A stretch of 23,444 nucleotides of DNA from Polymyxa betae (taxonomy: Eukaryota > Endomyxa > Phytomyxea > Plasmodiophorida > Plasmodiophoridae). Shown here one piece after another: positions 14,938-19,692 of this stretch; positions within the stretch are counted from its first letter, which is position 1; each line of letters begins with the position of its first letter. Under the pieces are notes generated by a model. It worked only from the letters and a program-made list of their open reading frames with translations. It was not told the origin of the DNA and searched no databases. The translations under genes and the position numbers were made by a program. The stretch is taken from contig RBZT01000463.1 in the NCBI GenBank assembly GCA_003693705.1, positions 1 to 23,444 of the forward strand, in the 5' to 3' direction.

Positions 14938-17900
14938 TTATGGCGATAATTGTTCCAGTAGAGATCGCAAAGTCTCCGAGTCTGGGTTCGTATTGCAGGC
15001 TGTTCTTGCCAGAGCAAGTAACTGATCGTCGGTAAGGTCCGGAGCTGAGCCAAATATCATCCAATAAATAGGGGACGATAAAAACGTTAACTCCACAAAC
15101 GATACCTAAAGATAAGAGCGAAAACAAAAAGGGATGTTTGCTGTCAAACACTAATAAGAAATAAATGTCATGCAAAACAAGAGTCAGTAGGCGAACGAAA
15201 ACGTGCAAAAAGTAGGAGAAGCAAGGTTGCCTACAAAGCCTGGAAATCTCGAGCTGAGCTGTATAAAGAGCGACATCTTTCGGATTGCGAGATATGGCCC
15301 GTGCAATAATGTCAAGAACATCAGAAATGCTCGCGCCATCGGATCTGGCAACCTGAAGACAATGCCGGAGCCAAAGCCCTGGCCGCGTTGGATCCGCTTC
15401 TAGATCAGACTCGCTGACAGCGTCAGTCGAGCAGAAATAGCGATCGGAGCCGGCTGAGGAGCTTACTGCTTGATATAATAAAGATATCACAGAGCCAATC
15501 TAACACCAGTGTTAGTGCAAATCATTACAGCAAGCGAGAAAAAACAGCAGAAAGACAAAGGAAAGGAGAGGAAAAAGAAGAAAATATGACCATACACATT
15601 CCTGATCTGTCCTTTGTTGATCGTTCAGTGAGATGAAACCACAATCATCAGCTGTTGGCGCCACCTCTGGTATTTCTCCAGAAGCAGCCATTGCAAGCGA
15701 CTCTTCAATATTTGTGGCAATGCCCAGTGACTCATCGAATGGTGGTGACAACGAAACTGAAGAGTTGCCAGAAGTTAGAGCCGGCGTGTGAGCTTTAGCG
15801 TCTTTGGCAATTGTCGATTTCGGTGAAGAGCTCGACTCTGGATTCGATAAGTGCAGCATGGTACATTTGTCGTCATTGCAATGGCCGAAGAGAGAAAACT
15901 GACAAACCATTGCGTTCGGATTAGACACACCACGAGAAACAGTGATGGGACTTTCGTAATGAAATTGACGCACGATTGAGGATTCGGAAAAGATACCCTT
16001 ATCAGAGTCGGAGTCAGCCACTTTCTGTTTTGACTTTAAATCGGAAATTTGAGATCTGACGGCATCGATGACTGAGCTGATTGCGAGACCCTCTTCTGCC
16101 ACAGGTTCCTATCGATTGAAACATGTTATAAGACAAAGTGCCAAAGAATGACAGAAATCAACTGAGCATGGCAGCACGGAGAAATAAGAAAAAAATCTGG
16201 CAGTACATCAAATAAGCAGAAATCGAAACATGAAAGGGCAAAGGCCTGGAGCTGGCGAAGAAAAAACTGGAAACTACAAACAAACCTGAGAAGCTGGATT
16301 CGCTTGCTCAAGAGCCAGTTGCCCTTTAGAATTCGCTGCCGGAGGTGCCTAAGAAAATGACGACATTCAGACGAAAACTAACAAGCAAAATGCACAAACA
16401 AGCGTATGCGTAGACGACATGGAAATATTTTATGCAAATAATGCGAATGACAGAAACAACGAAAGATGAAAGAACAATAGGCAGAAAACAGCTGGGCATC
16501 GAGCACAGACCGTCGTTTGAGTTGGAGACCTAGAAAACATTGATTGCGATCCATCCTAAGCTGATGTTAGAGAAGATGAGGCAGAGGGACACGATTGTGA
16601 AACCTGCTGAGGCGTAGATAAATTCAAAGTCATGGTCAACATGTCAAACTCGGACTGCTGCCGGTTCAACTCAGCTTCAAGTGTGAAGACCTCATCATCA
16701 TGACGTTCGATCATCTGTTTCATCCTAATCACATTTTGTTCTGTGATCTGCAGCCTGGCTCGAAGCAATCCTCTTCTTTGCTCTAACGAGGATATCTACA
16801 TTCATCACACCTCAGAAATAGCAAAAGGGAAATGGTATCAACTATCAATAAAACCAAGAGCATACGAAAAAAGGCAAAAATGTAGCCAACCTTTCCACGA
16901 AGGTCGGCAATAGTGGTTAACCGTGTCTGAAGAGCTGATTGTCGCGCCACGTTAGATGGCTGTTGCTTATGTTTTTTGGCAGATTGTCGAGCTTCAGCCG
17001 GAGCAGATTTAGCTGCAGGTAAAACTTGAGACACCTGATTAGATTTGTTGCTACTATCAGGTTGGAGAAGCGGAGTCTGATTGGGGATCTGGCGACTCTC
17101 TTGGGGCAACTTGGCAGTCGACGGGTTCTCTTGAGCCGTAACACCATTGCCGTTTGTACTGGCTGCTTCAGCAGCAGCGATCTTTTGCCTGTATGGGGAA
17201 ATCAAAAAGGGTGTCACACCAAAACTCAAACTTGATACGTGATGCATAGGAAAAGGCAAGTACCAATTCATAAAGGAAAACAAAGATTGTTGAGGGAAAT
17301 GTTTGGCAAATAACGAAAAATCTGCAAACGTTAAATTTAAGAACAGCAGTATTGGGAAGAGGCAAAAACAACAAAACATGCAGAAAACATCAAACGTCAG
17401 ACAAGATTAGGGATCAGCAACCCAAAATGGACCTGAGTTTCTTCATGTTAGCTTTGATTCGTTGTAGTTCATCAGAGGTAAAAGCCCGCTTGCGTTTCAA
17501 ATCATCGCCAAGCTCGCCAATCGATTCTGAATCGGACGTGTCATCCGATGTATTACCATCGAGATGAATGATAAAAGGGTCATCAGGATGCCTCGCAACC
17601 GATTTAGGTCGGCGCTTACGGATGGGCTGCTGTGTGTTGGAATCGAGTCGCTTTTTAGCCTCGGATTTTACAACAGCAGATGCCGATGGAATAGGGCTAG
17701 TCAAGCTAAACGAAAGGAATCATAAACAGCTGGTTTAAGAGAGCATTGGTGCGAACTCTGATGGATTAACTGAAGTGGTGACAGCAGCTGACAGTGCGGC
17801 AGTGTGGGGAGTCTAAACGAAAACGTTTAGGATAAAAATGAGAGAAAAAGAAATAAACTCACATGAGCAGGATCTGAAGTAGAAGCAGCAACTTTTACAG

Positions 17901-19692
17901 GAGCGGATACAGGAGCTGTAGGTGTCGAATTGACAATACTGAAACACAGTAAGACACTCAAGTGAAAAGAGCGCCAGAGAAGAAGAATGATCAAATAGGG
18001 GGTAGAGGGAATGCGAAAAAAAGAAATCTGAACACTATGCAAATCATTAGCTCGTACTTCCTTAAGAACTGTAGAGCATCTGTGGAAGCTTGTGAAGCAG
18101 CACCAGCGCTCTCTGATGGAGCGCTGCTGGATGCAGTTTTAGACCTCTTCTTTGGTGTAACACCATCGTCAAGTTTTGCATCGGCAGCAGATCTAGCCCC
18201 TTTAGATAATATGGCCTTGCGTTTGAGCTCGGCAATCAAGTTTTCATTGAGCTGATGAGGCTGAGGAGAAGGCAGTGGCTTCGGAACTGTAGCCTCCGAT
18301 ACAGAATCGATGATGAGTTTGGGAGGTCTGAATGACGGCGGAGCAAGACCATGCGGTTTCTCGGCAAATCCAGGCAGCAGCTACGCAAAATCAGAAAAAG
18401 CATAAGCGGAAAGAAGAAACAATGTGATGTCATACAGAAGGAAGAGGCTTTGGTGGAACCGGAGCAGGCAAAACAATAGGTGAATACCGATGGAAGAATA
18501 TCGGCGATTCAGATGGCAGAGGGACTCGATGGTGCCTGCCTAAATATGGTGGCGCAACAGCATACCGGTTGAAAACCGGAAGATGGCCATGAGCAGGGGC
18601 AGGCGGGACAGGCACGAAGAAACCGCCATGAACTGGAAGAAAGGGCTCTGACAGAGAGAAGTAAGAACAAAGAACGGGAAAAACATAGCAAAATTAACAG
18701 ATATTGCAGAAAATGAACACCACACAGCTTTCAGGCAGTTAGAAGAACAATTACAGAAACAATCCGATGTGCAAAAATGCCAACAAAAACGAACGCGTCA
18801 CGTTATAACACTACAGAAGAGAGAACAAGGGAACACGCACCCATTGGACGGCCAAAGTCAATCGGTCGCCTGGAGTCAGGTTCACGGCGAGGATCTGCGT
18901 TGGCAGGCTCGGGTTCCCGACGGAATTCGAAACTTTCACGAACACCGAAGTTAACACTGTGCCGTCTGGGCGGAAAGGCGGATGAAGTCGGTACAGGAGG
19001 AACATCAGGCACAGCACCATCCTCGTTATCAGAAACCTCACCCTCTTCTTTGTCATCGTCGTCCGTTGTAGCCTCGCTTCCTGCAGGTGCTGGTTTCTGT
19101 TCTTCAGTGTTCTGATGCTTGGTAGGCTCAGGTACAGGAGAATCAGGTACAGGAGACAAACGCGAGGCGCCAGACTGGCATTTGACGATGACGAAATTGG
19201 GAGATTGCAACTGCATCGCCGATTCCACAGACGACTCCGATTCAAATTCAACTCGAAATACAGATCTGATAATACCGATATCAGCACCGATAAGCCAAAT
19301 TTAAAGGATGAGTAGGAGGAGCGTGTTTTCAAACATAAAATAATATAGCCATATCTGTGCGAGTGTTTGCAATACAGCTTGGAAACACAAAAAAGGATCA
19401 GGTTTTAAATAATTACAGTCAAAACCTAATTCAAAAGCAGCAATCTAAACTTCAGAATTGTGTCGTACTTATCTGGAATCGTGTTTTCTACTCGGGATAT
19501 TCTTCCACAAGATTCGAGGAATTCGCGGCATTGCTCTAGGGACGCACCCATCTCGCAGCTGACATAGACGCTGCGTGCATCGGACGATGGGCCGGCCGGC
19601 GGCTCAGAGCCCTTGGACATGGACGCCCGCACCTGAGCCCTGAGGGCTAGCAGGGCTGGATCCGGTACTTGCATGTGTCCAGCCATGGTCAT
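14938..19692 (-). CDS. RRM (PABPN1-like) + ZFC3H1/Red1-type zinc finger + HAT repeat fusion, 1017 aa, 14 exons
   Basis: Exons: 19692-19451, 19265-18841, 18647-18436, 18380-18058, 17938-17863, 17812-17793, 17705-17433, 17188-16891, 16795-16604, 16555-16511, 16348-16286, 16108-15596, 15499-15235, 15044-14938 (TAA). All 13 intron phases agree, giving exactly 1017 codons.

Residues 40-112 form an RRM: beta1 ARSVYVS, RNP1 position KSVFRVEF, last strand VIVKC. DARSVYV and the 15-residue spacing from DK to the RNP1 Phe match PABPN1/Pab2. Residues 154-164 read EEGEVSDNEDG. A coiled coil spans about 609-680. The zinc finger is C792-X7-C800-X4-C805-X3-H809, with GHCNDDKC as in ZFC3H1/Red1. HAT-like repeats fill 926-1017 at 36-residue spacing.

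The likely role is nuclear poly(A) RNA decay through MTR4 and the exosome. The 20-nt exon 6 and the exon 1 donor are the least certain joins; RNP1 has lost its usual aromatics. Confidence 0.85.

Follow-up and report, generated by a model that had tools for sequence, protein, structure and literature searches.

Introduction

The closest described relatives of the gene considered here are subunits of the nuclear RNA decay machinery known as the poly(A) tail exosome targeting (PAXT) connection and the Mtl1-Red1 core (MTREC), in which the poly(A)-binding protein PABPN1 (Pab2 in fission yeast) and the zinc-finger scaffold ZFC3H1 (Red1) are separate proteins. According to published reports, Red1 and human ZFC3H1 homodimerise through coiled coils (PMC9402713), the YxSPLxxF motif of Red1/ZFC3H1 contacts the arch of MTR4 (PMC8187409), and ARS2-binding motifs can be defined (PMC9402713, PMC8187409). 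Red1 is a short protein of 712 residues that carries its finger close to the C-terminus (PMC9402713, PMC8187409), and the LENG8-binding helix of ZFC3H1 corresponds to human residues 730-747 (PMC13391367). In fission yeast, the contacts of Pab2 are with Rmn1 and Red5, and Red1 is described as reaching the Pab2 submodule through Rmn1/Red5 and not through Pab2 itself (PMC8187409), while in human cells the link on the PABPN1 side is described as RNA-mediated (PMC7049725). We describe a gene of Polymyxa betae (contig RBZT01000463.1), predicted to join an RNA recognition motif (RRM) of the PABPN1 type to a ZFC3H1/Red1-type scaffold (hereafter referred to as the fused gene).

The predicted product resembles ZFC3H1/Red1 in the presence, in the same order, of an ARS2-type motif, a coiled-coil-like middle, a YxSP motif, a C-X7-C-X4-C-X3-H finger and an RYF..LW..RAI.xN stretch, but differs in that an RRM precedes the ARS2 motif and the long HAT domain is mostly gone. 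It resembles PABPN1/Pab2 in its DARSVYV entry, in an identical spacing to the ribonucleoprotein motif RNP1 and in having PABPN1 as its nearest match in its own genome. By contrast, the fused RRM is without the RNP1 aromatics, its RNP2 is one residue shorter, and it runs on into the scaffold, whereas PABPN1 ends after the RRM. The finger shares its spacing and G.C...C..LH residues with CPSF4 (CPSF30), which has several tandem fingers rather than the single one seen here. On balance, it is just probable, to judge from the sequence, that this gene encodes a ZFC3H1/Red1-type PAXT/MTREC scaffold with an added PABPN1-derived pseudo-RRM for protein docking.

Results

The window (the whole stretch of DNA analysed, contig C82, 23,444 bases, from a genome of 24.4 Mb in 541 contigs) contains intron-rich genes, eukaryotic in character. 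The fused gene can be modelled on its minus strand as a stop-free spliced frame of 13 exons and 12 introns, with about 1045 codons (Table 1). A first-pass annotation had described a single open frame leading from a PABPN1-like RRM into a ZFC3H1/Red1-type protein; this was supported, the two parts meeting inside exon 2. The open spliced frame from 19692 to 14938 also stood, as did the junctions 19450/19265 and 18840/18647, which have GT..AG ends and compatible phases (19265 and 18647 being first exon bases); the proposed 14 exons, 13 introns and 1017 codons did not, and are replaced by the figures given above. The DARSVYV entry and DK-to-RNP1 spacing were as described, and EEGEVSDNEDG after the RRM (in exon 2), the C-X7-C-X4-C-X3-H finger and a coiled coil, in the form of a coiled-coil-like stretch with sub-threshold Pfam families, were all recovered.

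The RRM (residues 36-112), which is split between exons 1 and 2, is, by its sequence matches, PABPN1-derived but degenerate. A phmmer search of the PDB with residues 1-132 (E up to 10) returned just four sequences, all PABPN1-like. Three of them, 3ucg (the best, E 1e-4), 3b4d (2.6e-4) and 2jwn (0.003), bear the name polyadenylate-binding protein 2; the fourth, 2m70 (0.015), is called poly(A)-binding protein 1, but its aligned letters read as PABPN1-like. Within the genome, the only match beyond the two exons of the RRM itself was C410:37862-38098 (E 1.4e-5, 37% identity; three candidates scored). This segment was 57% identical to the Xenopus ePABP2 RRM used as a query and has an intact RNP1, KGFAYVEF, and we therefore consider it to be the canonical PABPN1. 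Pairwise BLASTP between the two RRMs gave an E value of 2e-10, with 28 of 80 residues identical (35%). Against 1002 open reading frames (ORFs) of 50 or more residues, from the overlapping loci L001-L035, which cover part of the genome's 82 RRM places, the fused RRM scored 29.1 bits with PABPN1 and no more than 10.4 with any other ORF. The PABPN1 positions DARSVYV, SCG, DK and VEF are conserved, and the distance from the R of DARS to the start of RNP1 is 41 residues in both proteins. The presence of a canonical PABPN1 gene, for which a search had been proposed, rules out the fused RRM as the genome's only PABPN1. The fused RRM is thus an extra diverged copy, and the fusion provides no proof of the 1:1 PABPN1:ZFC3H1 stoichiometry read into it by the first-pass annotation.

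The RNP1 of the canonical protein, KGFAYVEF, is replaced by KSVFRVEF in the fused RRM, with unchanged spacing, and the shorter RNP2 appears as a one-residue gap in the alignment with C410. When the three RNA-binding aromatics of Pab2 are placed on the fused RRM through the RNP motifs, according to a layout that we assume rather than derive from a structure, the first (Y) is kept and the others are V and R. In S. japonicus Pab2, RNA binding fell substantially when Y61, F101 and Y103 were mutated jointly (PMC12002642). The loss of two of the three RNP1/RNP2 aromatics makes the tethering of poly(A) recognition to the exosome, as first proposed, doubtful, and the fused RRM by itself most likely no longer grips poly(A). 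That it does bind poly(A), such that one polypeptide would both read the tail and bring in MTR4 and the exosome, is improbable. The PABPN1 ancestry, the conserved DARSVYV, SCG, DK and VEF and the retained RNP2 tyrosine would all fit a working RRM, but KSVFRVEF has lost two of the three residues whose joint mutation reduced binding in Pab2 (PMC12002642), RNP2 has its gap, and a canonical PABPN1 is present.

The two parts probably constitute a single fused gene with one predicted transcript. EEGEV and the second half of the RRM lie in the same exon (exon 2), separated by a linker of about 40 residues. An ARS2 motif was found in six of 38 ZFC3H1 proteins, most of which lack the N-terminus, with the first copy at residue 12-20 and the second five residues further on, all within the first 25 residues. 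As the motif is N-terminal in ZFC3H1 but follows the RRM in exon 2 here, the RRM would have been added before the ZFC3H1 N-terminus. In the same 38 proteins, largely truncated at this end, no RRM figures among the listed Pfam domains, and the fused RRM, used as a query, gave no match (best E 0.06). When scored with the codon usage of exons 3-13, exons 1-2 fare best in the frame of the model (mean log-odds of 0.15, versus -0.27 and -0.58 for the others). Between 20225 and 14862, the minus strand is free of AATAAA and ATTAAA; the first poly(A) signal-like hexamer after the start lies 77 bases past the stop (Table 1). We consider it unlikely that two adjacent genes are present, a short diverged PABPN1 paralogue (exons 1-2, with a stop in intron 2) and a downstream ZFC3H1. 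Reading past the exon 2 donor does lead to a stop about twelve codons on (ORF 18803-19300, ending ...GRPMGACSLVLSSVVL), but the ARS2-type motif typical of the ZFC3H1 N-terminus shares exon 2 with the RRM and has no second copy in the protein, neither hexamer is found on the minus strand in exon 2 or intron 2, and the intron 2 acceptor is pyrimidine-rich, with a fitting phase.

The zinc finger supports the assignment of the scaffold to ZFC3H1/Red1. Its sole reported Pfam family is zf-C3H1 (PF10650), for which a genome scan gave five matches, including the window finger and C93 (CPSF4); the window finger is not among the genome's 39 zf-CCCH matches. With a profile built from all 38 fetched ZFC3H1 proteins, residues 783-809 scored 15.6 bits (E 1.3e-7; one protein, filters off), against a best score of 7.1 bits for 1000 whole-protein shuffles (711 of which returned a score). 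In a six-frame scan of the 775 ORFs of the window with this profile, the ORF containing the finger scored 18.6 bits and the next 2.8; among the 1002 ORFs of L001-L035, the next score was 4.3 bits, and the CPSF4 locus L017 was absent at E up to 1. A search for a second ZFC3H1 elsewhere in the genome with the Ptychodera protein matched nothing, the window included, and was hence uninformative.

Two short motifs that have been described from structures are recognisable. EEGEV, of the [DE][DE]GE[ILV] type, occurs once in the fused protein, and ARS2 binding is predicted from the motif. YESPI resembles the arch-binding motif, with I for L; it was assessed with 20,000 shuffles as Y.SP[LI] over the 45 residues that precede the finger, the [LI] having been relaxed after YESPI was seen. 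For residues 500-707, the matching Pfam coiled-coil families were below cut-off and the ZFC3H1 profile gives no support. In the exon after the finger, a HAT-like stretch (residues 910-971, about 15445-15260), DRYFCSTDAVSES...LWLRHC...IIARAISRNPKD, can be aligned to the beginning of the HAT region of ZFC3H1; it scores -0.6 bits when the entire protein is searched and 2.9 bits when the search is confined to the C-terminal part, a value reached by none of 1000 shuffles (626 of which returned a score). Elsewhere, this stretch gave weak Pfam TPR/PPTA matches and SYF1 in the PDB (E 0.42). It was initially considered as proof of ZFC3H1, but was downgraded, because unrelated ORFs score equally high, such that it counts only through its position and order after the finger. 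The 36-residue HAT-like repeat array previously proposed thus shrinks to at most one stretch: no further HAT exon was detected in the six-frame profile scan of the window, the stop follows this single stretch, and the long C-terminal HAT/TPR array of animal ZFC3H1 was not found in the fused protein. A LENG8-binding or SDDSESD helix region in exon 7 was also considered and set aside, as the likeness was by eye only and the ZFC3H1 profile gave no alignment there.

It is quite improbable that the scaffold is another CCCH protein with an ARS2 motif (ZC3H18, ZC3H4 or ZC3H6) or a CPSF4-like finger protein. ARS2-type motifs are indeed listed for ZC3H4, ZC3H6 and ZC3H18 (PMC9402713), a single-sequence search with the finger ranks CPSF4 first, and the score of the HAT-like match does not rise above background. 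Against this, no Pfam family other than zf-C3H1 was reported for the finger, the ZFC3H1 profile gives 18.6 bits on it and passes over the CPSF4 locus, YESPI precedes it and RYF..P..LW..ARAI.RN follows in the next exon, and CPSF4 is encoded by a separate gene, at C93. That the RRM is unrelated to PABPN1, being either some other degenerate RRM or a fortuitous likeness, as might be supposed from the best Pfam RRM match, Nup35_RRM_2 (E 0.17), and from the failure to report RRM_1, is very improbable, given that the PDB matches are solely PABPN1-like chains and that the RRM matches the genome's own PABPN1 about 19 bits better than the other ORFs of the compared loci.

Candidate partner genes were present in the genome. 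DSHCT helicase matches, which we take to be of MTR4/SKI2 type, were found at three places, and there was one ARS2 match. A PWI domain followed by an RRM lies within one 310-codon frame (L034, G000:C45, 13787-14677), presumably the RBM26/27 layout. ZC3H3 was not identified; of the genome's zf-CCCH places, locus C336 was read. This locus (L036, G000:C336, 14420-15256) has four CCCH fingers with YKTELCR-type leads in a 359-codon frame, and we assume it to encode a tristetraprolin-type protein.

Parts of the gene model allow more than one choice. The start codon is at 19692 or 19686 (second ATG, in the context ACCATGG). All 12 chosen introns begin with GT and end with AG, with a T content of 39-56%. 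The last intron has 10 phase-compatible GT donors, giving proteins of 949 to 1062 residues, and the donor at 15234 leads to a different reading frame in the final exon. The exon 6 donor was picked from three frame-keeping options, one of them GC. The probable post-RRM intron of the genome's own PABPN1 gene, AAG/GTCAAC...TGCAG, has a weak donor, indicating that weak donors are not unusual in this genome.

Table 1. Positions of the fused gene, its exons and its motifs in the window
Feature	Position	Strand	Evidence or remark
Whole coding span	14938..19692	-	spliced open frame; last-intron donor ambiguous
Exon 1: N-terminal segment and first half of RRM (DARSVYV from about 19581)	19451..19692	-	PABPN1-type by phmmer against PDB and own genome
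Exon 2: second half of RRM (RNP1 KSVFRVEF, to about 19175), linker, ARS2-type motif, low-complexity tail	18841..19265	-	
EEGEV, ARS2-binding-type motif [DE][DE]GE[ILV], residues 154-158	19034..19048	-	P 0.0057, 20,000 shuffles
Exon 3, Pro-rich	18436..18647	-	
Exon 4	18058..18380	-	
Exon 5	17863..17938	-	
Exon 6	17757..17812	-	donor GTTCGC
Exon 7: acidic SDDTSDSES stretch and helix	17433..17705	-	
Exon 8	16891..17188	-	
Exon 9: coiled-coil-like segment	16604..16795	-	sub-cut-off Pfam coiled-coil families
Exon 10	16286..16348	-	
Exon 11: MTR4-arch-like motif and zinc finger	15596..16108	-	
YESPI, resembling arch-binding YxSPLxxF of Red1/ZFC3H1	15944..15958	-	P 0.0006
zf-C3H1-type zinc finger, C-X7-C-X4-C-X3-H, residues 789-806	15851..15904	-	PF10650 below cut-off and ZFC3H1 profile
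Exon 12 (3' end uncertain): HAT-like RYF..LW..ARAI.RNP stretch	15203..15499	-	
Exon 13 and stop codon	14938..15105	-	
First poly(A) signal-like AATAAA after the start	14856..14861	-	77 bases past the stop

Several other features of the window were recorded. At 20409-20743, there are three head-to-tail copies with a spacing of 130 bases, 75 bases of which are in register and 79-89% identical to the first copy, each with an ATG; a translated copy starts MAPPKRWTAEEKRHLLGL and gives a weak match to a Myb DNA-binding profile (20.9 bits, cut-off 24.4). A 282-codon open frame at 11763-12611 on the minus strand, with a CCHC zinc-knuckle-like end (CVNCCQIGHAAIRC), matched no Pfam family at E up to 0.1 and has what we take to be a gag-like look. 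Two 67-base copies, 87% identical and 473 bases apart (12925-13464), lie just before a tRNA-Asp gene (13894-13967). Finally, a 165-codon open frame at 6743-7240 on the minus strand has a sub-threshold match to DUF7830 (23.2 bits, cut-off 27.5).

Discussion

In the reading that we favour, the scaffold part of the fused protein would most likely work as in other species: EEGEV would recruit ARS2, the coiled coil would dimerise the scaffold, and the region of YESPI and the finger would bind the MTR4 arch, such that RNA would be handed to the exosome. The added RRM would be a pseudo-RRM built into the protein for docking; next to the ARS2 site, it would offer an additional protein surface that may hold or mimic the PABPN1 submodule (PABPN1, RBM26/27) on the scaffold, and the canonical PABPN1 encoded at C410 would still read the poly(A) tail.

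Several observations weigh against this reading. The Pfam check proposed by the first-pass annotation did not deliver the expected domains: RRM_1 was not reported for the fused RRM at E up to 10, no Pfam family reached its gathering score there, and zf-C3H1 reached 12.8, 14.7 or 18.1 bits by context (hmmscan) and 18.6 bits in the genome scan, below the cut-off of 20.9; the family-specific comparisons nevertheless support both assignments. The finger alone, searched against the PDB with phmmer, found CPSF4 fingers (best E 8.7e-4) and not Red1. In YESPI, the final Phe of YxSPLxxF is replaced by Ser, and 18 residues separate the arch motif from the first finger Cys, versus 40 in the ZFC3H1 set (about 22 missing). 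Unrelated real ORFs reach 2.8 and 4.3 bits with the ZFC3H1 profile, as high as the HAT-like stretch. The T-rich introns account in part for the absence of poly(A) hexamers. The same fusion was not found in relatives, in searches covering proteins of 575-1829 residues that share short words (221 candidates for residues 1-118, with no match at E up to 10, and two candidates for residues 760-830, again with no match); nor was an RRM-ZFC3H1 fusion described in the literature titles or abstract openings searched. A retained PABPN1 N-terminal helix looked right by eye, but the likeness was a seven-residue local match reached by 15924 of 20000 shuffles, and no argument is built on it. In S. japonicus, Red5 and Rmn1 are bound by the N-terminal domain of Pab2 rather than by its RRM (PMC12002642). 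As the corresponding segment of the fused protein is not demonstrably conserved, a simple bait model is weakened.

The fusion copies no known contact, given that Red1 and Pab2 are not described as touching in the yeast work and that the human link is described as RNA-mediated. The connection of PABPN1 to the MTR4-ZFC3H1 core is an unsettled question. It is possible, but unlikely, that an RNA-blind, PABPN1-derived RRM takes the place of PABPN1 permanently within the fused protein, such that RBM26/27 and PABPN1, the submodule on the poly(A) side, would stay docked on MTR4-ZFC3H1 regardless of RNA. If this were true, the RNA-mediated PABPN1 connection would have become constitutive. Proteins that are joined in one species are often in contact in others, and by this rule the fusion points to a testable contact, between the PABPN1 RRM fold and the adjacent ARS2-binding N-terminus of ZFC3H1. 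If the fused RRM is indeed RNA-blind, it would separate the protein-docking role of the RRM fold from its RNA-binding role.

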